DNA of 64,000 nt from Streptomyces sp. TG1A-8 (GTDB lineage Bacteria > Actinomycetota > Actinomycetes > Streptomycetales > Streptomycetaceae). Location: positions 6,510,001 through 6,574,000 of the forward strand of contig NZ_JASTLB010000001.1 of the NCBI RefSeq assembly GCF_030499535.1, read 5' to 3'. How positions within the stretch are numbered: position 1 is the first letter of the stretch; the number at the start of each line of letters is the position of its first letter. The notes under the pieces are model-generated. The model saw nothing but the letters and a program-made list of their open reading frames with translations, had not been told where the DNA came from and ran no database searches. Both the position numbers and the translations under genes were made by a program. Of the stretch, positions 20,061-35,758 are shown one piece after another.

Positions 20061-21701
20061 ATGCCGCACGAGCGAGCGGGCCGGCCGGCCGGTCCCGAGG
20101 ACCTTGTCGACGTGGCCCGACTGGTCACGGCCTACTACGCGCTGCACCCCGACCCGGCCGACCCGGCGCAGCGGGTGGCGTTCGGCACGTCGGGACACCG
20201 GGGATCGTCCCTGGCGAGCGCCTTCAACGAGGACCACATCGCCGCCACCAGCCAGGCCATCTGCGAGTACCGGACCGTGGGCGGCGTCGACGGCCCCCTG
20301 TTCCTGGGCGCCGACACCCACGCCCTGTCCGAGCCAGCCAAGGTCACCGCGCTGGAGGTGTTCGCCGCCAACGGCGTCACCGTGCTCATCGACGCAGCGG
20401 ACGGCTACACGCCCACCCCGGCGGTCTCGCACGCCATCCTCACCCACAACCGCGGCCGCACCTCGGGCCTCGCGGACGGGGTCGTCGTCACCCCCTCCCA
20501 CAACCCGCCGGCCGACGGCGGCTTCAAGTACAACCCGCCCAGCGGCGGCCCCGCCGCCTCCGACGCGACCTCCTGGATCCAGGACCGCGCCAACCAGATC
20601 ATCGCCGGCGGCCTGAAGGACGTGCGCCGGGTGCCGTACGCCCGTGCGCTCGCCGCCGCCACCACGCGGCGGTACGACTTCCTGGGCACCTACGTCGCCG
20701 ACCTGCCGAGCGTGCTGGACCTCGACGCCGTCCGCGCCGCCGGCCTGCGCATCGGCGCCGACCCGCTCGGTGGGGCGTCCGTCGCCTACTGGGGCCGCAT
20801 CGCCGAACAGCACCGCCTGGACCTGACGGTGGTCACCCCGCACACCGACCCCACCTGGCGGTTCATGACGCTGGACTGGGACGGGCAGATCCGCATGGAC
20901 TGCTCCTCGCCGTACGCGATGGCCTCCCTCATCGAGCAGCGCGACCGCTTCGACATCGCGACCGGCAACGACGCCGACGCCGACCGGCACGGCATCGTCA
21001 CCCCGGACGCGGGCCTGATGAACCCCAACCACTACCTCGCGGTCGCCATCTCCTACCTCTACCGGCACCGCGACCGGTGGCCAGCCGACGCGGGTGTCGG
21101 CAAGACCCTCGTCTCCTCCACGATGATCGACCGCGTCGCGGCCGACCTGGACCGCCGACTCGTCGAGGTGCCGGTCGGGTTCAAGTGGTTCGTGGACGGA
21201 CTGGCCGGCGGCGCCCTCGGGTTCGGCGGCGAGGAATCGGCCGGCGCGTCCTTCCTGCGCCGGGACGGCTCGGTGTGGACCACGGACAAGGACGGCATCA
21301 TCCTCGCCCTGCTCGCCTCCGAGATCACGGCGGTCACCGGCAAGACGCCGTCCCAGCACTACTCCGGCCTGACCGACCGCTTCGGCGAACCGGCCTACGC
21401 CCGCATCGACGCCCCCGCCTCCCGCGAGCAGAAGGCCCTGCTCGCCAAACTGTCCCCGGCGCAGGTCAGCGCCGACACGCTGGCGGGGGAAGCGGTCACG
21501 GCCGTCCTCACCGAGGCGCCCGGCAACGGAGCGGCCCTCGGCGGCATCAAGGTCACCACCGCCAACGCCTGGTTCGCGGCCCGCCCCTCGGGCACCGAGG
21601 ACGTCTACAAGGTCTACGCCGAGTCGTTCCTCGGCGCCGACCACCTCGCCCGGGTGCAGGAGGAGGCCAAGGCCGTGGTGCTGGGCGCACTCGGCGGCTG
21701 A
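20061..21701 (+). CDS. pgm: phosphoglucomutase (alpha-D-glucose phosphate-specific)
   Basis: The enzyme interconverts glucose-1-phosphate and glucose-6-phosphate, feeding sugar nucleotides and glycogen. The 546-residue product has the full four-domain layout: [11 protein letters not shown] near residue 40, phosphoserine loop [11 protein letters not shown], metal-binding [10 protein letters not shown], sugar-binding GEESAGASF and the C-terminal [12 protein letters not shown] phosphate loop. GCGGAGG lies 10 bases before the ATG. Two strong inverted repeats follow the stop. It could supply precursor for the exopolysaccharide genes 2 kb away (inference). Confidence 0.96.
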
Positions 21702-22986: not shown

Positions 22987-23514
22987 ATGCGATCATCTCT
23001 GCTGAGACGCCTCGGTCTCACCGCCGCCCTCGCCTTCGTCCTCACCGTCTTCGGCCTCGCTCCGAGTGCCGGCGCCGCCGATCCCGCGCCGGCCGCGCTG
23101 ACCTTCAGCGCCGACAGTGCCACCGTCACGCCCGGCGGCACGGTGAACCTGTCGATGACCCTCACCAACAACAGGACGTACGACATCTGGTTCGTCCACC
23201 AGACCATCGACCCGACCTGGCTCACCACCCAGCGTCCCGACCTGAAGTACGGCTTCACCGGCTGCGGCCTGGCCACGGCCGCCGGCAGCACCCCCTGCAG
23301 CGGCACCGGACCCGCCAACCTCGGCGGCAACTACGGCGCCACCATCCCGCCCGGGCAGAGCCGCACCGTCACGCTGACCCTCCAGGTCGCCGCCGACTCC
23401 GGCTGCAACGGCAACATCGGCTTCTACTCGTACTACTACGCCGAGTTCAGCGACAGCGGCAACAGCAGCGGCGGACCCGTCTACACGCCGGAGACGCGCG
23501 TGGTCTGCGCCTGA
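22987..23514 (+). CDS. secreted hypothetical protein
   Basis: A 175-residue protein with a signal peptide (RRLGLTAALAFVLTVFGLAPSAGAA, cleavage near residue 32) and a mature ~143-residue all-beta, Ig-like region. NLSMTLTNNRTYDIWF resembles the start of DUF11/Ig-like surface modules. Four cysteines (GCG, PCSG, SGCNG, VVCA) suggest two disulfides. The function is unknown. It lies immediately upstream of the polysaccharide locus but has its own probable leaderless promoter and is 394 bases away. Confidence 0.75.
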   Translation: MRSSLLRRLGLTAALAFVLTVFGLAPSAGAADPAPAALTFSADSATVTPGGTVNLSMTLTNNRTYDIWFVHQTIDPTWLTTQRPDLKYGFTGCGLATAAGSTPCSGTGPANLGGNYGATIPPGQSRTVTLTLQVAADSGCNGNIGFYSYYYAEFSDSGNSSGGPVYTPETRVVCA

Positions 23515-23908: not shown

Positions 23909-26038
23909 ATGAAGCGGACCATCCGCACCACCGCACTGACGGTCGGCGCGCTCATCGCCGCGCTCGGCCTGCAGGCCGGACCGGCCCAGGCCGACACCAC
24001 CACACCCCGCATCGACCTGCGGGTCCTGCTGGTGAGCGACGGCGGACCGGCCACCGCCGCCGTGGCCGCGGAACTCGACGCGGCCGGAACGCCGTACACC
24101 AGGGTCGACCTCACCCGGTCCGACCGGCCCGTCATCGGTCCCGGCTTCCTCGCCGACACCGTCGGTGGCCGGCCCCGTGCCAAGTACCAGGCCGTGGTGC
24201 TGCCCAACGACAACCCCTTCGCCGCCGGCTCCGCCGAGATGGCCGCGCTGGCCTCCTACGAGCAGACGTACGCGATCCCGCAGGTCGACGCCTACACCTA
24301 CGCCCGCCCCGAAGCGGGCCTGCAGTACCCGGTCGCCGGCGGCTACTCGGGCAGCATCGACGGCGTGCAGGCCGAGGTGACCGCGGCCGGCCGGACCGGC
24401 CCCTTCGGCTACCTCGACGGCACGGTGCCCTTCGAGGACGACTCGCCCACCGTCGGCGAGAGCTACGCCTACCTCTCGACGCCCGCGGCCGGCGCCGACT
24501 TCACCCCCTACGTGCAGGCGCCCATCCCGGGCACCTCCCGGCAGGGGTCGCTGGTCGGCGAGTACCGGCACGACGGGCGGCGGGAGCTGGTCGTCACCTT
24601 CGTCTACAACCGGTACCAGGAGCAGTTCCGGCTGCTCGCCCGGGGCATCGTGGAGTGGATGACCGGCGGTGTGCACCTCGGCGCCTCCCGCAACTACTTC
24701 GCCGTGCACGTCGACGACGTCTTCGCCGCCGACGACCGCTGGGACACCCAGCTCAACTGCACCCCCGGCGACGTCGACTGCACCAACGGCGCGGGCACGC
24801 CGAGCCCCATCCGCATGACCGCGGCCGACGTCGACCACGCCACCGCCTGGCAGGACAGCCACCACTTCACCCTCGACATGGTCTACAACGGTGCCGGCAG
24901 CGTCGACCAGCGCGAGGACGACAACGGCGTCGACCAGCTCGCCGACAAGCTCATCGCCGACCGCGCCCGGTTCCGCTGGGTGAACCACACCTACACCCAC
25001 GCCTTCCTCGGCTGCGAGCAGAACACCACCGTGGTGCCCTGGACGTGCCGGACCAACGCCGACGGCAGCACCAAGTGGGTCGACCCGGGCACCATCAACA
25101 ACGAGATCGCCACCAACCGCGCCTGGGGTCAGGCCGCCGGACTCCCGCTGCAGAACGACGAGTTGGTCACCGGCGAGCACTCGGGCCTGAGGATCCTGCC
25201 GCAGCAGCCCGCCGACAACCCCAACCTGGCACCCGTCCTCGCCCTCAACGGCGTCGCCTGGCTCGCCTCGGACAACTCCCGCGACCCGGAGCAGCGCAAG
25301 GTCGGCGCCGCCACCACCGTCTCCCGCTACCCGATGAACGTCTTCTACAACGCGGGCCGGGCCGCCGAGCAGGTCGACGAGTACAACTGGCTCTACACCA
25401 GCCGGGCCCAGGGCGGCAGCGGCGTCTGCGAGGACGACCCCGCCACCACCACCTGCCTGCCGGCCCCGCTGGACACCGGCACCGGCTACAGCGGCCACAT
25501 CGTGCCGCTGGAGACCCGGATCGCCCTCGGTCACGTGCTCTCCAACGACCCCAAGCCGCACTTCATCCACCAGTCCAACCTCGCCGAGGACCGCATCGCC
25601 TACCCGGTGCTCGACGGCGTCATCGACGGCTACGACGGCCTGTTCGCGGACAACACCCCGCTGGTGAACCTGCGGATGAGGGACATCGGGGCCGAACTGC
25701 AGCGCCGCGCCGCCTGGAAGGCCGCCGTGAGCGCCGGACAGGTCACCGCCTACCGCATCGGCGGCGCCGTGACCGTGCAGGCGCCCGCCGGCCTCGCGGT
25801 CACCGCGACCCTGCCCACCGGCACCACCCTGCCCACCGGCGCCTTCGGCAGTCCCTACGCGGGCGAGGTCTCCGGCTGGACGGCCTCGATCGGCATCCCC
25901 CTCGTCCTCACCCTCCCGACGGCCGCCACGGCACCCTCCGCGCGCACCGCCGACGAGGCACCGGCCACCGGCCCCGCCCCGGACGCCAAGGTCCCGGCCG
26001 GCGTGACCCGGCAGGTTCCGTACACCCCGGACAGCTGA
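23909..26038 (+). CDS. secreted polysaccharide deacetylase-like protein (Agd3/CE18 type)
   Basis: A 709-residue secreted protein with signal peptide residues 1-28 (AQA/D cleavage). Residues ~35-230 form a beta-rich N-terminal region. The catalytic part carries a NodB-like metal triad: HVDD (267-270) and NHTYTH (His360, His364), with HQSN further on. This order and size resemble fungal Agd3, the galactosaminogalactan N-deacetylase (CE18), and functionally the PelA deacetylase. The C-terminus is Ala/Pro-rich with no anchor. It would partially deacetylate an exported GalNAc-type polymer (inference). It precedes a PelF-like gene by 243 bases on the same strand. The family call is from memory of motifs, not alignment. 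Confidence 0.8.
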   Translation: MKRTIRTTALTVGALIAALGLQAGPAQADTTTPRIDLRVLLVSDGGPATAAVAAELDAAGTPYTRVDLTRSDRPVIGPGFLADTVGGRPRAKYQAVVLPNDNPFAAGSAEMAALASYEQTYAIPQVDAYTYARPEAGLQYPVAGGYSGSIDGVQAEVTAAGRTGPFGYLDGTVPFEDDSPTVGESYAYLSTPAAGADFTPYVQAPIPGTSRQGSLVGEYRHDGRRELVVTFVYNRYQEQFRLLARGIVEWMTGGVHLGASRNYFAVHVDDVFAADDRWDTQLNCTPGDVDCTNGAGTPSPIRMTAADVDHATAWQDSHHFTLDMVYNGAGSVDQREDDNGVDQLADKLIADRARFRWVNHTYTHAFLGCEQNTTVVPWTCRTNADGSTKWVDPGTINNEIATNRAWGQAAGLPLQNDELVTGEHSGLRILPQQPADNPNLAPVLALNGVAWLASDNSRDPEQRKVGAATTVSRYPMNVFYNAGRAAEQVDEYNWLYTSRAQGGSGVCEDDPATTTCLPAPLDTGTGYSGHIVPLETRIALGHVLSNDPKPHFIHQSNLAEDRIAYPVLDGVIDGYDGLFADNTPLVNLRMRDIGAELQRRAAWKAAVSAGQVTAYRIGGAVTVQAPAGLAVTATLPTGTTLPTGAFGSPYAGEVSGWTASIGIPLVLTLPTAATAPSARTADEAPATGPAPDAKVPAGVTRQVPYTPDS

Positions 26039-26281
26039 GCGGCGCACCGGCCCCAAGGACCTGACCGTCCCTTTCCCGTCCGTTCCGCGGCGCCCGCCCC
26101 GCGACGCCCCGGCACACCCGTGCGCGCACCCGTGCCCGCACGCCCGCGCGGCGGCCCCGGCGGCCGCCGCGCGGGCCGGGACGCCCGGCGGGCGGACCAC
26201 GCAAGGCGGCCGGCGGGCCCGGTCCCCGTCGGCCGCCGGGACCCGCACGACCACCCCACACCTCGGACGTGGAGCACACCC

Positions 26282-27802
26282 ATGCGCGTTCACCACGGCG
26301 CGCGCCGCTCCGGCGCGACGCGCGTCACCCTGCTCACCGAAGGCACCTATCCGCACAGCCACGGCGGCGTCAGCGTCTGGTGCGACCAGCTCGTCCAGGG
26401 CATGCCCGACCTCGACTTCGACGTCATCGCCGTCACCGGCACCGGACGCGAACCCGTGGTCTGGGACCTGCCCGCCCACGTCCGCGGCGTGCGCCCGGTA
26501 CCCATGTGGGGTGCCCCGCCCGAGGGCCGCCCGCCCCGGGGCCGCGCCCGCAACCGGCTCGACGCGGCCTACGAGGGCTTCCTGACCGCCCTGCTCGACC
26601 CGCCCGCCGAGGACGGTTTCGCGCCCGCCCTCTACACGATGGCCCGGGCCGCCGCCGACGGCGCCCTCAGTCCCTTCCTGCGCGGGGACCGGGCCGTCAC
26701 CCTGCTCGCCGCGGTGTGGAACCGCCCCGGTCTCGCCGTGCGCGAGGCCCGGCCCACCCTGCACGACGCGGTCACCGCGACCACCCTGCTGGAACACGCC
26801 CTGCGGCCCCTGGCCGCACCACCGCCGGAGGACGGCGTGGCCCACGCCGTCAGCGGCGGCGTCGCCGTCCTGCCCGGCCTCGCCGCCCTGGACCGCCACG
26901 CCGTCCCGCTGCTGCTCACCGAGCACGGCGTGTACCTGCGCGAGCGCTACCTCGGCTACCGCACGGCGCCGTACCGCTGGCCCGTCAAGGCCGTCGTCCT
27001 CGGATTCTTCCGGCTCCTCGCCGAGGAGAGCTACCGGCGGGCCGCCCTGATCACCCCGGGCAACCGCTACAACCGGCTCTGGGAGGAGCAGGGCGGCGCC
27101 GACCCGCAGTCCATCCGCACCGTCTACAACGGCGTGGACCCGGCCGCCTTCCCGCCGGCCGGGCCCGAACCCGGGACGCCCACGCTCAGCTGGGCGGGCC
27201 GCGTGGACCCCATCAAGGACCTGGAGACCCTCATCAGGGCCTTCTCCCTCGTGCGGGAGCGGATACCCGGCGCCCGGCTGCGCCTGTTCGGCGGCACCCC
27301 GCGCGGCGGCGAGGCCTACCGGGAGCGGTGCGAGGCACTGGCCGCAGAGCTGGGACACGCCGACGCCGTCACGTTCGAGGGCCGCGTCGACGACATCAAG
27401 GACGCCTACGCGGCCGGCAGCGTCGTCATGCTCTCCAGCATCAGCGAGGGCTTCCCGTTCACCCTCATCGAGGCGATGTCCTGCGGCCGGGCGACCGTCT
27501 CCACCGACGTCGGCGGCGTACGGGAGGCCGTCGGCGACACCGGGCTCGTCGTCCCGCCGCGCGACCCGGCCGCCATGGCCCGGGCCGCCCTCGACCTGCT
27601 CGCCGACCCCGGCCGGCGCAGGGCGATGGGGGAGGCCGCGCGGCTGCGGGTGATCGAACAGTTCACCCTGCGCCAGACCATCGACACCTTCCGCTCCATC
27701 TACCTCGAACTGTCCACCGCGGCCCGGCCGTTCGTGCCGGCACCGGTGCCGGCGGCAGAGCCGCGGGACATGGCAGCCGGTGCGGGGAGCGTGGCCGGAT
27801 GA
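26282..27802 (+). CDS. PelF-like GT4 family glycosyltransferase
   Basis: A 506-residue cytoplasmic GT-B transferase with the PelF N-terminal signature VTLLTEGTYPHSHGGVSVWCDQL and TEHGVYLRERYLGY, then the GT4 C-terminal domain (WAGRVDPIKDLETLI, VTFEGRVDDIKDAYAAG) and the ISEGFPFTLIEAMSCGR nucleotide-sugar loop. PelF polymerises UDP-GalNAc/GlcNAc in the Pel system, and fungal Gtb3 has a related domain. The ATG follows GGAC/GTGGAGC. The stop overlaps the next start (ATGA), so the membrane protein is translationally coupled. Confidence 0.9.
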   Translation: MRVHHGARRSGATRVTLLTEGTYPHSHGGVSVWCDQLVQGMPDLDFDVIAVTGTGREPVVWDLPAHVRGVRPVPMWGAPPEGRPPRGRARNRLDAAYEGFLTALLDPPAEDGFAPALYTMARAAADGALSPFLRGDRAVTLLAAVWNRPGLAVREARPTLHDAVTATTLLEHALRPLAAPPPEDGVAHAVSGGVAVLPGLAALDRHAVPLLLTEHGVYLRERYLGYRTAPYRWPVKAVVLGFFRLLAEESYRRAALITPGNRYNRLWEEQGGADPQSIRTVYNGVDPAAFPPAGPEPGTPTLSWAGRVDPIKDLETLIRAFSLVRERIPGARLRLFGGTPRGGEAYRERCEALAAELGHADAVTFEGRVDDIKDAYAAGSVVMLSSISEGFPFTLIEAMSCGRATVSTDVGGVREAVGDTGLVVPPRDPAAMARAALDLLADPGRRRAMGEAARLRVIEQFTLRQTIDTFRSIYLELSTAARPFVPAPVPAAEPRDMAAGAGSVAG

Positions 27803-29205
27803 GCGGACCGATGGCCCTCGAACCGGGCGGAACCGAACAGGACACCCTGGCCCTGCGGCTCGCCGGCGCACCACCGCTGCCCCGCCGCCCCGACGACCGC
27901 ACCCTCGCCCTCCGGCTGCCCCGGCACGGCCCGGACGAGGAGGCGGTCAGCGGGCTCGCCGCCGAGCTCGCCGACCGCGTCGGCCCGGCCGTCCACCCCT
28001 ACGAGGTGGCCGCCCTGCTGGAGGCCGAGGGCCTGTCCGCCGATCTGATCAGGCAGCGGTACGGCCACCCCACCCTGTTCTCCCTGGCCACCGCCCTGTA
28101 CCAGCAGGTGCCCCGCACCTTTCCCGAACCCGCCCCGCCCGCCGACCCCTGGCGCCCCGACCACGTGCGCTGCCTGCTGCGAGGGGTCCTCTTCGCCCTG
28201 CCGGGGCTCGCCTACCTGCTCACCGCGCCCCTGTGGCACCCCGGCCGGCACGCCGCGGCGCCCGTCGTGGCCGGCCTCGTCTCCTGGGCCTGGGGACAGG
28301 GGCTCGGCCACCGCGCCCACGTGCGGATGGCCACCGGGCGCCGGCAGGCGGCGCGCACCCTGCTGACCGGCGCCCCGCTCGGCGCGGCGGTGGCCACCGC
28401 CGCCGCCGTACCGGCCGCCGGCGGCGGCCCGGCGCTCCTGGCGGCGGCGGGCCAGTCGCTGTACCTCGCGGCGGCCGGCGTCCTGCTGGTGCTGGCCCGG
28501 GAACGGCTGCTGCTGGCCGCGCTCACCCCGCTGATCGCGGGCGCCGCCGCACTGCCCTGGTGGGAGCCGGGCCCGCCGCTGCGCACCGGCCTCGTCCTGC
28601 TGGCCCTGGCGGCCACGCTCGCCGCCACCGGACGGGCGCTGCACGGGGCCGCCCGGACGGCCCCGGCCGCCCCGGACGGCAAGCGGCCCCGCCTGCGCCG
28701 GTCCCTGCCGTACGGGCTGTTCGGGCTCGCCGCGGGCCTGCTGGTGCTGCTGGAGGGCCGGCGGGAACCGTACGCGGTGATCGTGCTGACCGTCAGCATG
28801 GGCCCCGCCGAGTGGCTGCTCTACCGCTACCGGGGGCTGTCCGTCGCCGCGCTCCGCGCGAGCGCCACCCCCGCCGGGTTCCTGCTGCGCTCCGCCGCCG
28901 TCCTGGGCCTGTGCCTGCTCGCCTACCTCCTCCCGCTGCTGCCGGCCGCCCTGCTCACCGGCGCCGCACCCGGCCCCCTGCTGCTGCTCGCCGCCGCCCT
29001 GTGGACCGCGCTGCTCCTACAGGCGTTCGGGACGGCCTGGCCGCCGGCCGTGATCTGCCTCGCCGCCGCGGGCACGGCCTGCGCGCCCGTCCTGCTGCAC
29101 CTGCCGGGCGGTCCGGCCGCGCTGCCGCTGTGCTGCGCCGCCGCCGTGCTCTGCCTGGTGGCGTGCGCACTGGGGCTGCTCGGCCGGCCCGCCCGGCACG
29201 TCTGA
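27799..29205 (+). CDS. polytopic membrane protein of the polysaccharide locus (PelG-like role proposed)
   Basis: A 468-residue protein. Residues ~1-120 are cytoplasmic with a helical YEVAALLEAEGLSADLIRQRY segment, followed by about 12 membrane helices from GVLFALPGLAYLLTAPLW to the C-terminal VLCLVACALGLLG. It overlaps pelF-like by 4 bases. In Pel systems PelF works with the 12-TM protein PelG; this protein occupies that position and has similar topology but no motif I can match to the MOP/Wzx family. A role in export of the polymer is therefore inferred from context. Confidence 0.8.
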   Translation: MSGPMALEPGGTEQDTLALRLAGAPPLPRRPDDRTLALRLPRHGPDEEAVSGLAAELADRVGPAVHPYEVAALLEAEGLSADLIRQRYGHPTLFSLATALYQQVPRTFPEPAPPADPWRPDHVRCLLRGVLFALPGLAYLLTAPLWHPGRHAAAPVVAGLVSWAWGQGLGHRAHVRMATGRRQAARTLLTGAPLGAAVATAAAVPAAGGGPALLAAAGQSLYLAAAGVLLVLARERLLLAALTPLIAGAAALPWWEPGPPLRTGLVLLALAATLAATGRALHGAARTAPAAPDGKRPRLRRSLPYGLFGLAAGLLVLLEGRREPYAVIVLTVSMGPAEWLLYRYRGLSVAALRASATPAGFLLRSAAVLGLCLLAYLLPLLPAALLTGAAPGPLLLLAAALWTALLLQAFGTAWPPAVICLAAAGTACAPVLLHLPGGPAALPLCCAAAVLCLVACALGLLGRPARHV

Positions 29206-29264
29206 CCCGCCGTACCCGTCCCCGACCGTCCGCGACACCCCGCAACCACCGGAAGGACACACCG

Positions 29265-30266
29265 TTGACCTCCGCACCGCTCGCCGCCGTCACCGGAGCC
29301 GAGGGCTTCATCGGCTCCCACCTCACCGAGGCGCTCGTCGCCGCCGGTCACCGGGTCAGAGCCATGGCCCAGTACAACTCCTTCTCCTCCTACGGCTGGC
29401 TGGAGACCCTCGCCCCGGACGTCCTGGACCACGTGGAGATCGTCCTCGGCGACGTCCGCGACCCCGGCTCGGTCCGCGGCCTGCTCGAAGGCGCCGACGC
29501 CGCCTACCACCTGGCCGCGCTGATCGCGATCCCGTACTCCTACCGGGCACCGCACAGCTACGTGGAAACCAACGTCACCGGCACCCTCAACGTGCTGGAG
29601 GCGGTGCGCGCCCTCGGCACGCCCCGGCTGGTGCACACCTCCACCAGCGAGACCTACGGCACCGCGCGGACCGTGCCGATCACCGAGGACCACCCGATCA
29701 ACACCCAGTCGCCGTACGCCGCGTCGAAGGCCGGCGGGGACCGGCTGGCCGACAGCTACCACGCGAGCTTCGGCACCCCCGTGGTGACCCTCAGGCCGTT
29801 CAACACCTTCGGCCCGCGCCAGTCGATGCGCGCGGTCATCCCCACGGTCATCGGCCAGGTCGCCGCGGGGGAGCGCACCATCACCCTGGGCGACCTGCGC
29901 CCCACCCGGGACTTCACCTACGTCGAGGACACCGCGCAGGCCTTCCTCGCGGCCGGCACCGCGCCCGCCGAGCGGGTCGTCGGGCGCACCTTCAACGCCG
30001 GGACCGGCGGCGAGATCTCGGTCGGCGACCTCGTCGCCCTGATCGGCAAGGTGATGGACAGCGCCCTCGACGTCCGCGAGGACCCCGCGCGCATCCGGCC
30101 CGCGAACTCCGAGGTGATGCGGCTCGTCGCCGACGCCACCCGGCTCACCGCCGCGACCGGCTGGCAGCCCGCCCACACCCTCGAACAAGGTCTCGCCCGC
30201 ACCGTGGAGTTCTTCCGCGACCCGGCCCATCTGGCCCGCTACAAGACCGGCATCTACAACATCTGA
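29265..30266 (+). CDS. LegB-like NAD-dependent sugar-nucleotide 4,6-dehydratase/epimerase
   Basis: A 333-residue extended SDR: Rossmann motif TGAEGFIGSHL, YNSFSSYGWLETL, HLAALIAIPYSY, catalytic TSTSETYG and YAASK, and RPFNTFGPRQS. These match LegB-type NDP-hexosamine 4,6-dehydratases closely, more than GalE epimerases. The start appears to be a rare TTG at 29265: GGAAGG lies 8 bases upstream and no in-frame ATG or GTG is nearby. It would make an NDP-4-keto-6-deoxy sugar, or act as an epimerase analogous to Uge3 (inference). Spacing of 59 bases places it in the same operon as the glycosyltransferase. Confidence 0.88.
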   Translation: MTSAPLAAVTGAEGFIGSHLTEALVAAGHRVRAMAQYNSFSSYGWLETLAPDVLDHVEIVLGDVRDPGSVRGLLEGADAAYHLAALIAIPYSYRAPHSYVETNVTGTLNVLEAVRALGTPRLVHTSTSETYGTARTVPITEDHPINTQSPYAASKAGGDRLADSYHASFGTPVVTLRPFNTFGPRQSMRAVIPTVIGQVAAGERTITLGDLRPTRDFTYVEDTAQAFLAAGTAPAERVVGRTFNAGTGGEISVGDLVALIGKVMDSALDVREDPARIRPANSEVMRLVADATRLTAATGWQPAHTLEQGLARTVEFFRDPAHLARYKTGIYNI

Positions 30267-30318
30267 CCCGTCCGGCACGTCACGTCACCGAGGTCCCCAC
30301 ACAACGAAGGAGGAGCCC

Positions 30319-31032
30319 ATGCACGCAGTGATCCTGGCGGGAGGCAAGGGCGTCCGGCTGCGGCCCTACACCACCGCGCTGCCCAAGCCGCTCGTCCCCA
30401 TCGGCGACCAGCACGCCATCCTGGAGATCGTGCTGCGCCAGCTGTCGACGGCCGGCTTCACCCGCTGCACCATCGCCATAGGCCACCTGGGGGAGATCAT
30501 CCGCGCCTACGTCGGCGACGGCTCCCAGTGGGGCATGGCCGTCGACTACGCCACCGAGGACAGCCCCCTGGGCACCATGGGCCCGCTGCTCAACCTGCGC
30601 GACCGGCTGCCCGAGACCTTCCTGGTGATGAACGGCGACGTGCTCACCGACCTCGACTACGCCGACGTGCTGCGTCGGCACCGGGGCTCCGGGGCGCCGC
30701 TGACCATCGCCACGTACGCCCGCAAGGTGCACATCGACTTCGGCGTGCTGACCACGGACGCGAGCAGGGTCGTCGCGTTCACCGAGAAGCCCAGCATGGA
30801 CTACCGCGTCTCCATGGGCGTCTACGGCCTCAGCCGCTCGACCCTGGGCACCTACACGCCGGGCCTGCCGCTCGGCTTCGACGAACTGGTCCTCGACCTG
30901 CTGGCCGCCCAGAACCCGCCGCACGCCTACGAGTTCGACGGCTACTGGCTGGACATCGGCCGCCCCGACGACTACGACCGGGCCAACGCGGAGTTCACCA
31001 CCCGCAAGTCCCTGTTGCTCAAGGGAGCCTGA
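30319..31032 (+). CDS. sugar-1-phosphate nucleotidyltransferase
   Basis: A 237-residue nucleotidyltransferase with LAGGKGVRLRPYTTALPKPLVPIGD (nucleotide-binding signature), NGDVLTDLDY (metal-binding Asp), FTEKPSMDYRVSMGVY and DIGRPDDYDRAN. It lacks the left-handed helix domain of GlmU and is the length of RfbF/LegF-like enzymes. It charges a sugar phosphate with a nucleotide for the polymer or its modification; the sugar is not determined. AAGGAGGAG precedes the ATG. It is 52 bases after the dehydratase and 7 before the next SDR. Confidence 0.9.
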   Translation: MHAVILAGGKGVRLRPYTTALPKPLVPIGDQHAILEIVLRQLSTAGFTRCTIAIGHLGEIIRAYVGDGSQWGMAVDYATEDSPLGTMGPLLNLRDRLPETFLVMNGDVLTDLDYADVLRRHRGSGAPLTIATYARKVHIDFGVLTTDASRVVAFTEKPSMDYRVSMGVYGLSRSTLGTYTPGLPLGFDELVLDLLAAQNPPHAYEFDGYWLDIGRPDDYDRANAEFTTRKSLLLKGA

Positions 31033-31039
31033 GCACCGC

Positions 31040-31944
31040 ATGCGCATCCTCCTCCTGGGCGGCACCGGTTACCTGGGCCGCCACGTGGCCGAGCGGCTGC
31101 GCGCCCTGCAGGGCGCGCAGGTCCTCGCCGCCGGCCGCTCCGGCGCCGCCGGGATCCGCGTCGACCTCGCCGCGGACCGGCCCGAACAGCTCGCCGGGAC
31201 CCTGGCCGCGGCGGCACCCGACGCCGTGGTCAACTGCGCCGGTGCCACCGGCGGCGACCCGGTGACCCTGGCCGAGGTCAACGCGCGCGGCCCCGCCGTG
31301 CTGTGCGCCGCGCTGCGCGAGGCGGCGCCCGCCGCCCGCCTGGTCCACCTCGGCTCGGCCGCCGAGTACGGGCCGGGCGTCCCGGACGCGCCGGTGACCG
31401 AGTCGGCGCCCGCCTGCCCGGTCACCCCGTACGGCGCGACCAAGCTCGCGGGCACGATCGCGGTCACCTCCGCCGCCCTGGACGCCGTGGTGCTCCGGGT
31501 CGGCAACCCGGTGGGCCCGGGGGCGCCCCCGGCCGGCCTGCCCGGCCGGCTCACGGCACAGCTGCGCGCCGCGGGAGGGGATCCCGCGGCGGTGCTGCGG
31601 TTCGGCGACCTGTCCGCCCACCGCGACTTCGTCGACGTCCGCGACCTCGCCCGGGCGGTGGCCCTCGCGGTCACCGCCCGGGGCCCCTGCCCCCCGTCCT
31701 CAACATCGGCGGCGGACGGGCCGTGCCGGTACGGGAACTGGTGCGGGGCCTGGCCCGGCGGGCGGGCTTCCGGGGACGGCTGGAGGAGAGCACGGGCGGT
31801 TCGGACCGCTCCGCCCGCGTCTCCTGGCAGTGCTCCGACGTCACGGCCGCCGGCCGGGTGCTCGGCTGGCGGCCCGCGCACGGCCTGGACGACGCCCTCG
31901 ACACGCTGTGGGCGGCCACGGCCCCGGACGGGCGGCTGCCGTGA
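31040..31944 (+). pseudogene. NAD-dependent sugar-nucleotide SDR, frameshifted
   Basis: The first ~215 codons encode a normal SDR (LLLGGTGYLGRHV, HLGSAAEYGPG, YGATKLAGT, HRDFVDVRDLARAV). At the GGGGCCCC run (31680-31687) the frame slips by one missing base, and the expected end (PVLNIGGGRAVPVRELVRGLA...GWRPAHGLDDALDTL) continues in another frame to the TGA at 31942-31944. That stop overlaps the next GTG start, as in a coupled operon. Repairing one C gives 301 residues, the family norm. It may be an assembly indel or a recent mutation. The likely role is reduction or epimerisation of the LegB-like product. Confidence 0.8.
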
Positions 31945-32603
31945 GCCTCCTGGTACCGCTGTACGTGCACCCGGCCGAGGACCCCGGCGCCTGGCACCGG
32001 CTGATCACCGCCGCCGACCGCACCCACGCGGTCGTCCTGAACCCGGCGAACGGCCCCGGCACCGCCCCCGACCCCGCCTTCACGGCGGCGGCCCGGGCAC
32101 TGCGGGCGGCCGGCGCCCGCCTGCTGGGGTACGTCGACACCGACTACGGCGTCCGCGACCGCGCCCGGGTCGCCGAGGACATGCGCCGGCACCGGGAGTG
32201 GTACGCGACCGACGGCTGCTTCCTCGACCGCGTCACCGCCGACGTCCAGGGGCTGCCCGCCTGCCGCCGCCTGGTCCGGGACGTACGGCGGCTCGGCGCC
32301 GGCACCGTCGTCCTCAACCCGGGCGTGCACCCGGCCCCCGGCTACGCGCGCCTGGCCGATCTGACCGTCACCTTCGAGGGCCACTGGTCCACGTACGTCT
32401 CGGCGTTCACCCGGCCGGCCTGGACGGCGCGCCACCCGCCCGACCGGTTCTGCCACCTCGTCTACGGCGTGCCCGAGGTCCTGATCCCGCTCGCCGTCCG
32501 CACCGCACACGAGCGGGGAGCGGCGATCTCCGGTCCGGTCACCGGACGACCGCCCAATCCGTGGGCCGAACTGACACCGGCACTGGCCGTGACGGAGGCG
32601 TGA
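31941..32603 (+). CDS. spherulation-specific family 4 protein (Sph3/GH135-like)
   Basis: A 220-residue protein with the spherulin-4 fold signature: VPLYVHPAEDPGAWHRL, VVLNPANGPG, GYVDTDYG, DGCFLDRVT and VLNPGVHPAPGYARL. Aspergillus Sph3 of this family (GH135) cleaves galactosaminogalactan, and the PelA hydrolase domain is a functional analogue. No signal peptide is seen, unlike Sph3, so it may act inside the cell or be exported otherwise. GTGA overlap with the upstream SDR shows translational coupling. This is the last gene of the polysaccharide operon. Confidence 0.85.
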   Translation: MSLLVPLYVHPAEDPGAWHRLITAADRTHAVVLNPANGPGTAPDPAFTAAARALRAAGARLLGYVDTDYGVRDRARVAEDMRRHREWYATDGCFLDRVTADVQGLPACRRLVRDVRRLGAGTVVLNPGVHPAPGYARLADLTVTFEGHWSTYVSAFTRPAWTARHPPDRFCHLVYGVPEVLIPLAVRTAHERGAAISGPVTGRPPNPWAELTPALAVTEA

Positions 32604-32915
32604 GGGGCGCGGACGGCGCGGTGGGCGGCGGCACCGGCGACCACCGGCACCACCGGCCCCGCACCGGCCGCGTCCGCGGTTCCGCCGCCCCGGTGCGGCG
32701 CGCCGCCGGGAGCGGACACCCCGCTTTCCTGACCGTCTGGCATGCTCTGGTCAAATCTGGCAGGCTTTCGGCAGCCGCCGCCCCGACCCACGAGGCGCGG
32801 AGCACCTGACACCGCACGGATCGCACACCCCGTCCGCGACCGCCCCGGCGCACCCCAGCCGACCGGGCGGCCACCGAGCCGGCCGGAACCCCGGCCGCCG
32901 CACAAGGAGCAGCGT
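32604..32915. other. 312-base region upstream of the M1 peptidase with phased TCTGG repeats
   Basis: TCTGG occurs at 32736, 32746 and 32756, exactly one helical turn apart, within the only AT-richer part of this gap. This looks like an operator for a protein bound to one face of the DNA. AAGGAG at 32904-32909 is the ribosome binding site of the next gene. Nothing else is supported. Confidence 0.45.
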
Positions 32916-34775
32916 GTGAGACCGACCCCCCACAAGGCACTCGGCGCCGGCCTGCTGACCGTCGCCGCGCTGACCGCCCTCTCCCTCCCCGGCGCCCCCG
33001 CCGCCGCCCAGCCCGCCCCGGCGCCCGTCGCCGCCTGCACCCCGGCCCCGACGGTCGCCAACGGCGGCTTCGAAAGCGGCACCTCGTCCTGGACCCGGTC
33101 CGCCTCCACCGTGATCACCAGCCGTACCGGCCGGAGCGCGCACGGCGGTTCCGCCTACGCCCGGCTGGGCGGCGCCGGCAGCACCCGCACCGGCACCCTC
33201 GCCCAGAGCGTCACCGTCCCGGCCGGGTGCGGCGCCGCCACCCTGACCTTCTGGCTGCACGTCGACACCGCCGAGACGACCTCCGCCACCGCCCGCGACA
33301 AGCTCACGGCCAAGGCCGGCAGCACCACGCTGGCGACCTACTCGAACCTCGACAGGAACACCGGCTACACGCGCAAGACGCTCGACGTCTCCGCGTTCGC
33401 CGGACGGACCGTCAACCTGTCCTTCACCGGCACCGAGGACTCCAGCCTCCGGACGAGCTTCCTCCTGGACGACATCGCCCTCGACACCTCCGGCCCCACC
33501 GCACCGCTCCGGGCCGACTCCACCCGCACCCCGGCCGCGCCCGCCTACACCGTCGGCCTCAGCAGCAACACCGCCGGCACCGTCTGGAACGGGCACGAGA
33601 GCGTCTCCTTCACCAACGCCTCGTCCACCGCGCTCAGCGAGGTCTACCTGCGGCTGTGGGACAACTACCACGGCACCTGCGACGCGATGCCGATCAAGGT
33701 GGGCAACGTCACCGGCGGCACCGCGGGCGCCTACTCGGTCGGCTGCACGGCACTGCGCATCGCCCTGCCGACTCCGCTGAACCAGGGTCAGACCGCCACC
33801 CTCGGCTTCGACCTGGGCATCACCGTGCCCAGCGGCGTCGACCGGTTCGGCCACGACGGCGCCTTCAGCTTCATCGGCAACGCCCTGCCCGTCCTCGCCG
33901 TCCGTGACAGCGTCGGCTGGCACCTGGACCCCTACACCGACAACGGGGAGTCCTTCTACTCCCTGGCCGCCGACTTCAGGGTGACCCTGGACCACCCCAG
34001 CACCCTGCTGGTCCCGGCCACCGGCACCTCCACCGACACCCCCGGTTCCAGCGGCCGCACGGTCACCACCGCCACCGCCGCCCAGGTCCGTGACTTCGCC
34101 TGGGCCGCCGGGCCCTTCAGCAGGATCTCCGGCACCTCCTCCGCCGGCGTCCCGGTGAACGTCTACTCCGTCTCCGGGATCAGTTCCAGCAGCGCCCAGT
34201 CGATGCTGAGCACCGCCAGGAGCGCCGTCGACGCCCACGCCGCGCGCTTCGGCGCCTACCCGTACGGCGAGCTGGACGCCGTCATCGACAACAACTACTG
34301 GTTCGGCGGCATGGAGTACCCCGGCTTCGTCCTCGACCTGGTCAGCACCACGGCGCTCACCCACGAGATCGCCCACCAGTGGTGGTACGGCATCGTCGGC
34401 GACGACGAGTACACCAACCCCTGGCTGGACGAGGCGTTCACCGACTACGCCACCGACCTGGCCCTCGGCAGGACCGGGACGGGCTGCTGGAGCAGCGTCT
34501 CCTGGGCCTCCGGCACGGAGAAGATCACCAACTCGATGGCCTACTGGGACGCGCACTCCTCGCGCTACTCCACCGTGGTCTACGGCTACGGCAAGTGCGC
34601 CCTGCACGACCTGAGGCGCGTCCTCGGCGACACGGCCATGGCCAAGCTGTTGAAGGACTACGCGACCGCGCACTGGTACGGCGTCTCGACGACGGCCGGG
34701 TTCAAGGCCGCCGCCCAGGCCGCCACCGGCACGGACCTGACGTCCTTCTGGACCCAGCACCGCATCGACGGCTGA
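32916..34775 (+). CDS. secreted M1 family metallopeptidase
   Basis: A 619-residue secreted zinc peptidase. The signal peptide ends near AAAQPAPAP (~residue 33). Residues ~45-200 are a carbohydrate-binding-like jelly roll (NGGFESGTSSW), followed by the M1 N-terminal beta domain and catalytic domain: GGMEYP (GAMEN equivalent), HEIAHQWW (His483, Glu484, His487) and WLDEAF (Glu506, 19 residues on). It should act as an extracellular aminopeptidase. The GTG at 32916 has AAGGAG 6 bases upstream. A hairpin terminator follows. Confidence 0.93.
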   Translation: MRPTPHKALGAGLLTVAALTALSLPGAPAAAQPAPAPVAACTPAPTVANGGFESGTSSWTRSASTVITSRTGRSAHGGSAYARLGGAGSTRTGTLAQSVTVPAGCGAATLTFWLHVDTAETTSATARDKLTAKAGSTTLATYSNLDRNTGYTRKTLDVSAFAGRTVNLSFTGTEDSSLRTSFLLDDIALDTSGPTAPLRADSTRTPAAPAYTVGLSSNTAGTVWNGHESVSFTNASSTALSEVYLRLWDNYHGTCDAMPIKVGNVTGGTAGAYSVGCTALRIALPTPLNQGQTATLGFDLGITVPSGVDRFGHDGAFSFIGNALPVLAVRDSVGWHLDPYTDNGESFYSLAADFRVTLDHPSTLLVPATGTSTDTPGSSGRTVTTATAAQVRDFAWAAGPFSRISGTSSAGVPVNVYSVSGISSSSAQSMLSTARSAVDAHAARFGAYPYGELDAVIDNNYWFGGMEYPGFVLDLVSTTALTHEIAHQWWYGIVGDDEYTNPWLDEAFTDYATDLALGRTGTGCWSSVSWASGTEKITNSMAYWDAHSSRYSTVVYGYGKCALHDLRRVLGDTAMAKLLKDYATAHWYGVSTTAGFKAAAQAATGTDLTSFWTQHRIDG

Positions 34776-34819: not shown

Positions 34820-34909
34820 ACCACCGGGCCACTCGGATGGACGTAATTCGGCCCGGTGCGGCTTCGTTGGGCGGTATCCGGAGTGCGGCACGCCCCGGCC
34901 GCGGGTCAG

Positions 34910-35758
34910 ATGGTGGGCGTGCGAACCTCCATGCGACACCACCGCGGCCGCTGGCGCCTGTACGTCACCGGCACCCTGACCGGCCTCCTCCTGTCCCTGC
35001 CGGCGCCTTCCGCCGTGCCCGCGCCGGGCAAGCCCGTACCCGTCCGCGGCAGCGCCCACATGGGGATGGGCGTGCTCGCCCACGACGGCTCCGCGGCCCC
35101 GGCGGACACCGTCCCGCCCGCCGGCCGGGTGACCCAGACCGAGGGCGTGGACGTCTCCAGCCACCAGCTCGACGTCGCCTGGACGACGCTGTGGGACAGC
35201 GGGACCAGGTGGGCCTACACCAAGGGGACGGAAGGCACCTACTACAAGAACCCCTATTTCACCCAGCAGTACAACGGCTCCTACGGCGTCGGCATGATCC
35301 GCGGCGCCTACCACTTCGCCACCCCGGACACCACGGGCGGTGCCACCCAGGCCGACTACTTCGTCGACCACGGCGGCGGCTGGTCCAAGGACGGCAGGAC
35401 GCTCCCGGGCGCCCTCGACATCGAGTGGAACCCCTACGGCGACGACTGCTACGGCAAGACCAGGAGCGCCATGGTCACCTGGATCCGTGACTTCCTCACC
35501 CGCTACAAGTCCCGCACCGGCCGCGACGCCGTCATCTACACCGCCACCAGCTGGTGGACCCAGTGCACCGGCAACTACGGGGGCTTCGCCGCGACCAACC
35601 CGCTGTGGATCGCCCGGTACGCCTCGTCGGTGGGGACGCTGCCCGCGGGCTGGTCGTTCCACACCATGTGGCAGTACACCGCGACGGGTCCGACGGTCGG
35701 CGACCACGACCGGTTCAACGGAGCCGCCGACAAGCTGCGCAACCTCGCCACGGGCTGA
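34910..35758 (+). CDS. secreted GH25 muramidase (lysozyme)
   Basis: A 282-residue secreted protein with a basic n-region (RHHRGRWRLY), hydrophobic core and cleavage near SAVPAPG. The GH25 domain spans ~85-280: GVDVSSHQLDVAW, YTKGTEGTYYKNPYF, GAYHFA, LDIEW (catalytic acid), and FHTMWQYT. It cleaves the MurNAc-GlcNAc bond of peptidoglycan. Start choice is uncertain: ATG 34910, GTG 34919 and ATG 34931 are all in frame without a clear ribosome binding site. Confidence 0.9.
   Translation: MVGVRTSMRHHRGRWRLYVTGTLTGLLLSLPAPSAVPAPGKPVPVRGSAHMGMGVLAHDGSAAPADTVPPAGRVTQTEGVDVSSHQLDVAWTTLWDSGTRWAYTKGTEGTYYKNPYFTQQYNGSYGVGMIRGAYHFATPDTTGGATQADYFVDHGGGWSKDGRTLPGALDIEWNPYGDDCYGKTRSAMVTWIRDFLTRYKSRTGRDAVIYTATSWWTQCTGNYGGFAATNPLWIARYASSVGTLPAGWSFHTMWQYTATGPTVGDHDRFNGAADKLRNLATG

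Follow-up and report, generated by a model that had tools for sequence, protein, structure and literature searches.

In this study, we describe a seven-gene locus of Streptomyces sp. TG1A-8 that very probably makes an extracellular amino-sugar polymer and deacetylates it with a secreted enzyme of the Agd3 type. The locus lies in a 64,000-nucleotide stretch of DNA (hereafter, the window; positions 6510001-6574000 of contig C1 in the 7.66 Mb assembly). Its core genes (deacetylase, glycosyltransferase [GT], and membrane protein) carry interchangeable sugar modules in different actinomycetes, which is new in this analysis. In the window, the module is a cassette composed of a nucleotidyltransferase gene flanked by genes for two short-chain dehydrogenases/reductases (SDR1 and SDR2). 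The chances that the fuller account, in which this cassette provides the polymer with a 6-deoxy-hexosamine, is correct appear to us evenly balanced. The seven genes, in window coordinates, are as follows:

23909-26038, + strand: Agd3-like (CE18/CBM87-type) polysaccharide deacetylase, secreted, 709 amino acids, identified by fold and motifs
26282-27802, + strand: PelF-type GT4 glycosyltransferase (NF038011, PF11997)
27799-29205, + strand: polytopic membrane protein with a soluble N-terminal part, presumed polymer exporter, adjoining the GT across all classes of locus
29265-30266, + strand: SDR1, LegB-like, predicted nucleoside diphosphate (NDP)-hexosamine 4,6-dehydratase, TTG start (TIGR04180, motif TSTSETYG)
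30319-31032, + strand: sugar-1-phosphate nucleotidyltransferase (PF00483, 132 bits)
31040-31944, + strand: SDR2, putative 4-ketoreductase, frame change near 31,690 (PF01370 on its first piece)
31941-32603, + strand: spherulin-4/GH135-type protein, leaderless (PF12138)

The locus is real and widespread. Its gene order is common to many species and is, therefore, far beyond chance. Among 80 Streptomyces loci (the top 80 among 215 relatives retrieved by the window GT, a sample that leans towards cassette-bearing loci), matches above thresholds were found for the GT in 80, the membrane protein in 79, SDR1 in 76, the nucleotidyltransferase and the first piece of SDR2 in 75 each, the deacetylase in 73, and the spherulin-4 protein in 71. 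Sixty of these loci are full-flank, that is, represented by a stretch longer than 21,000 bases (the other 20 are shorter); all seven genes were present in 57 of the 60, and the remaining three had no match for the deacetylase only. More broadly, 70 of 150 sampled Streptomyces genomes had a deacetylase match (E-value up to 0.001; a few are fragments). An earlier, sequence-only reading of the window had described these parts as lying on one strand with overlaps. All of them are indeed present on the + strand, although SDR2 is not one open frame in the window, and 4-base overlaps occur at two junctions only (GT/membrane protein and SDR2/spherulin-4), the others having gaps of 243, 59, 52, and 7 bases.

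The identity of the deacetylase is supported by both fold and motifs. The best PDB match of its AlphaFold2 model (predicted local distance difference test score, pLDDT, 87.1) is Agd3 (6NWZ), the fold agreeing over three domains, with the CBM87-type N-terminal domain and the deacetylase domain expected of CE18 (Agd3). A profile of the protein also matched 6NWZ (8.4e-10), although the single sequence searched against PDB sequences gave no Agd3 match. The CE18 motifs (CM1 Asp-Asp, CM2 HxxxH, and CM4 His) are all present; the window motifs align to the DD, HTFTH, and FHQ of Agd3, the last two stretches not being significant alone. D269/D270 (in HVDD) and H360/H364 (in HTYTH) are invariant in a 32-row alignment (A4) and H554 is kept in at least 90% of its rows. 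R458, R463, and R473 are all invariant in the same alignment and are candidates for the equivalent of the CM3 arginine of Agd3, R613. The N-terminus looks signal-like by eye. The sequence-only reading had called this protein a secreted NodB-like enzyme with the HVDD/HTYTH triad, and had named the lack of a CE18 or NodB fold as the outcome that would speak against it; the call stands and that outcome did not occur. The window deacetylase had no match to PF25115, and two orthologues (P0105 and P0107) scored 24.6 and 24.0 bits against a cut-off of 27.6, which serves as a working rather than a defining criterion for CE18. The listed homologues are 77-86% identical and come from Streptomyces wherever an organism is given. 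Streptomyces also hold orphan Agd3-like deacetylases with no GT or membrane-protein match nearby (L131, 7423-9501; L132). The L131 protein has HVDG and NGTYDR where others have HVDD and NHTYTH and may, therefore, be inactive.

The GT was correctly recognized earlier as PelF-type GT4: it scored 165 bits against NF038011 (PelF; cut-off 100) and 203 bits against PF11997, and a hydropathy scan revealed no membrane helix. The membrane protein next to it matched no Pfam or NCBIfam family, and its profile had no meaningful PDB match. The previously suggested count of about 12 membrane helices is plausible, given that a low-confidence model shows 11 helices of at least 17 residues plus a broken one at 122-142, although hydropathy gives seven clear segments. 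Identity with PelG found no support (no PF16933 match in the whole genome; hhalign probability 0.1 against two PelG sequences, an alignment of two being a weak test). Hence, the claim that the architecture differs from Pel holds for PelG. A Pfam scan named no PelD or PelE among the locus proteins, no search having been aimed at these two.

Turning to the cassette, SDR1 scored 445 bits against the LegB model TIGR04180, versus 166 for dTDP-glucose 4,6-dehydratase, 143 for GalE (cut-off 262), and 78 for GDP-mannose dehydratase. Its motif reads TSTSETYG, and both GalE-type rows compared have SSAAVYG; the Ser-Glu pair of this SDR motif marks dehydratases (and decarboxylases). An epimerase identity of SDR1 was rejected based on the GalE versus LegB scores and the TSTSE motif. 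On these grounds, SDR1 does not qualify as the Uge3-type UDP-Glc(NAc) 4-epimerase of a fungal-type galactosaminogalactan (GAG) cluster, which the sequence-only reading had listed among the fungal parts. The nucleotidyltransferase resembles guanylyltransferases, with uridylyltransferases close; its best solved relative is a mannose-1-phosphate guanylyltransferase and a uridylyltransferase comes third. As to SDR2, the single sequence placed 6WJB at the top among solved structures, followed by the GDP-6-deoxy-4-ketohexose reductase 2PK3, a profile of seven orthologues matched 2PK3 best (1.2e-31, 114 bits; MoeE5, 104 bits), and the RDFVDVRD motif is kept. The three proteins may act in a route from an NDP-hexosamine through an NDP-4-keto-6-deoxy intermediate to an NDP-6-deoxy-hexosamine. 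Of 71 relatives in which both ends of SDR2 are covered, 69 (all but L055 and L108) have it as one uninterrupted frame that stops where the spherulin-4 gene begins, so the frame change within a C-rich stretch of the window is either a sequencing error or a real break; unless it is a read error, the cassette may be defective in the window strain because SDR2 is split. Ten neighborhoods of distant SDR1 relatives were also examined (in L154 and L156 gene picking missed the relative itself). The relative in L155 passes the LegB cut-off with 503 bits and has, about 3.6 kb away, a nucleotidyltransferase that is extended at its N-terminus, the relative in L159 adjoins a nucleotidyltransferase extended in the same way, and those in L157, L161, and L163 adjoin another SDR that matches SDR2.

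The exchange of modules became evident in 35 loci of actinomycetes other than Streptomyces, taken from deacetylase hits within families that had already yielded hits and including some near copies (L194, L247), in which modules were called by tblastn, with profile scans only for the sugar-module proteins of L195, L198, and L228. Twelve hold a GalE-type SDR (the one such protein scanned passes TIGR01179 with 337 bits, cut-off 262), four hold the window cassette (L196, L226, L228, and L249), and 11 hold the nucleotidyltransferase-SDR2 pair without SDR1, ten of these with a nucleotide-sugar dehydrogenase and another SDR (L244, of this dehydrogenase class, has a weaker GalE-like match too, 37%). 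The rest comprise five without a sugar gene (including L246, which stops about 600 bases past the deacetylase), two orphans, and one contig end. SDR1 and a GalE-type SDR were never seen together in one locus: the latter was found in none of the four outside cassette loci and in none of the 80 Streptomyces loci (GalE match of at least 150 bits in the Streptomyces set). Within Streptomyces, 20 further loci, hand-picked from deacetylase hits and not random, comprised 13 in which the three core genes occur without the cassette, five with the cassette, and two orphan deacetylases; 14 of the 20 had a spherulin-4 match of at least 100 bits. Hence, the cassette is separable from the core. In a GT tree (63 rows, including 12 of the 80 named Streptomyces loci; midpoint root), the 13 cassette-free Streptomyces rows form one clade, the 11 nucleotidyltransferase-SDR2 rows form another, and the four cassette rows from outside Streptomyces are split between two positions. 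L196 and L249 join the nucleotidyltransferase-SDR2 clade weakly (85/33), and several branches are long; given this weak join, the long branches, and the midpoint root, the tree is compatible with gain, loss, or exchange of the cassette. In one locus (L198, 16242-19263), the same core is combined with another kind of sugar module, made up of a dehydrogenase, an SDR, and a leaderless GH114-like protein.

The spherulin-4 protein matched PF12138 with 120 bits (cut-off 30.2) and the Sph3 structure 5C5G at 8e-15, and its gene is coupled to the cassette by the overlap with SDR2, as previously read. The implied likeness to Sph3 in secretion fails, however. The protein begins right at the first barrel strand and has no hydrophobic N-terminal extension. 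Judged by hydropathy, the first 45 residues in 104 loci have a median peak of 1.47 and reach 2.0 in only three loci, compared with 98 of 125 deacetylases (an imperfect control, 27 of 125 being below 2.0). In 101 of the 104 loci, the chosen start differs from that in the window by no more than 10 residues, and in none of the 104 does an alternative start in the preceding 60 residues bring in a stretch that reaches 2.0. Therefore, unlike Sph3, the protein likely works inside the cell. The catalytic residues of Sph3 are given as Asp166, Glu167, and Glu222 in one source (PMC10485009) and as Asp196/Glu222 in another (PMC12054363). Mapped from the 5C5G alignment, the Asp166 equivalent is kept in 105 of 105 rows and that of Glu222 in 104. 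A comparable pattern was found in the 11 nucleotidyltransferase-SDR2 loci: ten have no spherulin-4 match in the stretches examined (the exception, L243, has a weak one, which scores 61 bits and precedes the deacetylase by about 0.8 kb), and eight have a whole or partial GH114-like protein, the six readable ones being without a hydrophobic start. In the 14 rows listed, the starts of the separate GH114 genes of other loci resemble those of lipoproteins by eye. This contrast is uneven, since the most hydrophobic start was chosen for these genes and the nearest one for the GH114-like proteins in dehydrogenase-class loci; those of L198 and L251 have one possible start only. Thus, a leaderless glycosidase-type protein recurs, which perhaps trims or clears chains made by the cytosolic GT.

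Putting these elements together, we propose that the cytosolic PelF-type GT4 would polymerize an N-acetylhexosamine chain, the coupled multi-helix protein would export it, and the secreted Agd3-like enzyme would remove part of its acetyl groups, giving a cationic polymer that could stick to cells or surfaces. The GH135-type protein, which lacks a leader and whose translation is coupled to that of the cassette, would trim or clear chains inside the cell. The nucleotidyltransferase, SDR1 (as 4,6-dehydratase), and SDR2 (as 4-ketoreductase) would supply an NDP-6-deoxy-hexosamine, similar to N-acetylfucosamine or N-acetylquinovosamine, which could be the principal monomer or accompany N-acetylgalactosamine (GalNAc) as a second one. 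It is tempting to speculate further, although we consider this rather unlikely as a whole, that the module sets the C6 chemistry of the polymer: 6-hydroxy GalNAc with GalE, a 6-deoxy sugar with the LegB-like cassette, and an oxidized or lost C6 with the dehydrogenase and SDR. The window kind would then be a cationic poly-6-deoxy-hexosamine (e.g., polyfucosamine), edited by a cytoplasmic glycosidase prior to export.

Several observations weigh against this account. SDR1 remains below the LegB cut-off of 475 bits and is labeled LegB-like only; its profile does not clearly separate solved structures either (Pal 6BWL, 167 bits; epimerase 7YS8, 156 bits), so structures alone do not decide against an epimerase. 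The SDR2-like neighbors in L161 and L163 score higher with SDR1 than with the SDR2 piece. The margin for SDR2 as a reductase is modest (2PK3, 114 bits, versus 99 for the reductase 6X3B, 96 for 6WJB, and 94 for the UDP-glucose 4-epimerase 7KN1). Judging from these scores SDR2 might instead be an epimerase, 6WJ9-6WJB being, we presume, PelX, the UDP-GlcNAc 4-epimerase of a Pel locus. Further, SDR2 need not be the partner of SDR1, given the 11 loci that hold the nucleotidyltransferase and SDR2 without it, and both the sugar and the nucleotide of the cassette are inferred from sequence. The Glu167 position of Sph3 is Arg in 55, Gln in 48, and Cys in two of the 105 rows; with this residue lost in every row, the hydrolase activity of the spherulin-4 protein is uncertain. 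The membrane-protein model (pLDDT 51.5) is too poor for a fold search. Finally, 51 of the 80 Streptomyces loci have, within the stretch analyzed, a gene of GH114, a family that acts on galactosamine (GalN) polymers; this agrees more readily with GalN than with a polymer made solely of 6-deoxy sugars. On the same count, we rejected the notion that a polymer other than GalN leaves cassette loci without GH114; the window locus itself has none, the genome's one match lying outside the window at C1:917736.

The GH114 genes are thus also part of the case for a GAG- or Pel-like polymer of GalNAc and GalN, with the cassette providing a minor decoration or serving another glycan and UDP-GalNAc coming from housekeeping epimerases. 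The 12 sister loci with a GalE-type SDR point in the same direction, as does the reported action of Agd3 on alpha-1,4-GalNAc oligomers (PMC7229062, partial text). We nonetheless give this alternative only a minority chance, since in the 57 full-flank loci that have all seven genes the cassette sits inside the gene row, after the membrane-protein gene and before the GH135-type gene, with SDR1 about 87-95% identical across them, and no Streptomyces locus reached the GalE threshold. With SDR1 being LegB-like and GalE-type SDRs missing from cassette loci, the GalNAc monomer assumed by the sequence-only reading is not established, and a 6-deoxy-hexosamine is about as likely. Alternatively, the cassette could make GDP-D-rhamnose or another neutral 6-deoxyhexose (by a guanylyltransferase, a 4,6-dehydratase, and RMD) for a heteropolymer with N-acetylhexosamine and hexosamine, comparable to galactose in fungal GAG. 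The guanylyltransferase likeness, the SDR2 profile match to 2PK3, and RDFVDVRD would all suit such a product, but the preference of SDR1 for LegB over GDP-mannose dehydratase (445 versus 78 bits) makes it improbable. Least probable of all is that no exopolysaccharide is made and that the locus serves instead to modify a cell-wall glycan or a secondary metabolite: although the membrane protein has no relative of known family, and the product and GT acceptor are not established, an Agd3-type deacetylase with an extended substrate-binding domain, a PelF-type GT, and galactosaminidase-family hydrolases indicate a long amino-sugar chain.

In the neighborhood, a small secreted protein with a hydrophobic N-terminal stretch is encoded upstream (22987-23514, + strand); it matched no family above curated cut-offs and is conserved, tblastn having found it in 65 of the 80 Streptomyces loci. 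A phosphoglucomutase-like frame (20061-21701; named by eye, start approximate), about 2 kb upstream of the locus, could supply sugar phosphates. Downstream, a GH25 lysozyme-type gene (34856-35758, PF01183) adjoins an M1-peptidase-like gene (32742-34775, named by eye), and both are common to some close relatives.

With the deacetylase present in 70 of the 150 Streptomyces genomes and the literature searched describing no such polymer characterized in the genus, and no poly-6-deoxy-hexosamine of this kind, the locus series offers a test of chemical variation in deacetylated cationic matrix polymers, if modules set the monomer, and of whether Sph3-type proteins act inside cells. It also bears on how bacteria used in industry aggregate and grow as pellets, and on the proposal that the fungal GAG cluster originated in bacteria. 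The literature searched revealed no module series, LegB-like cassette, or leaderless hydrolases, none of the searches being aimed only at intracellular GH135; we regard the first two as new here, together with the absence of a secretion signal from the spherulin-4 protein and of a PelG match for the membrane protein.

The core of the finding is already known, since bacterial Agd3 homologues have been described in operons with a GT, a membrane protein, and GH114, and with spherulin-4 in some actinobacteria (Bamford 2020, PMC7229062; this and the sources below in their available parts). The window locus shares with these operons the Agd3 homologue, the cytoplasmic GT, the multi-spanning membrane protein, and, as in some actinobacteria, spherulin-4, with GH114 often near. 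The LegB-like cassette, the interchangeable modules, and the leaderless spherulin-4 are absent from the available operon text. Similarly, the fungal GAG cluster (gtb3, agd3, ega3, sph3, and uge3; PMC10485009) has an Agd3-type deacetylase, a GT, and a GH135-type protein in common with the window locus, which differs in having no Uge3-like epimerase, no GH114, and no secretion signal on its GH135-type protein. Campylobacter LegB acts in a route that starts with GDP-GlcNAc, and this front end of legionaminic acid synthesis (LegB and PtmE; PMC4481668) likewise pairs a LegB-like dehydratase with a nucleotidyltransferase. Unlike that pathway, the window locus has no nonulosonate genes among its proteins, and its nucleotidyltransferase lacks the N-terminal extension present in L155 and L159 and is followed by a reductase-like SDR. 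Finally, the Gram-positive Pel operon pelDEADAFG (PMC7112168, PMC13254593) shares with the locus both the PelF-type GT and a separate deacetylase with a substrate-binding domain.

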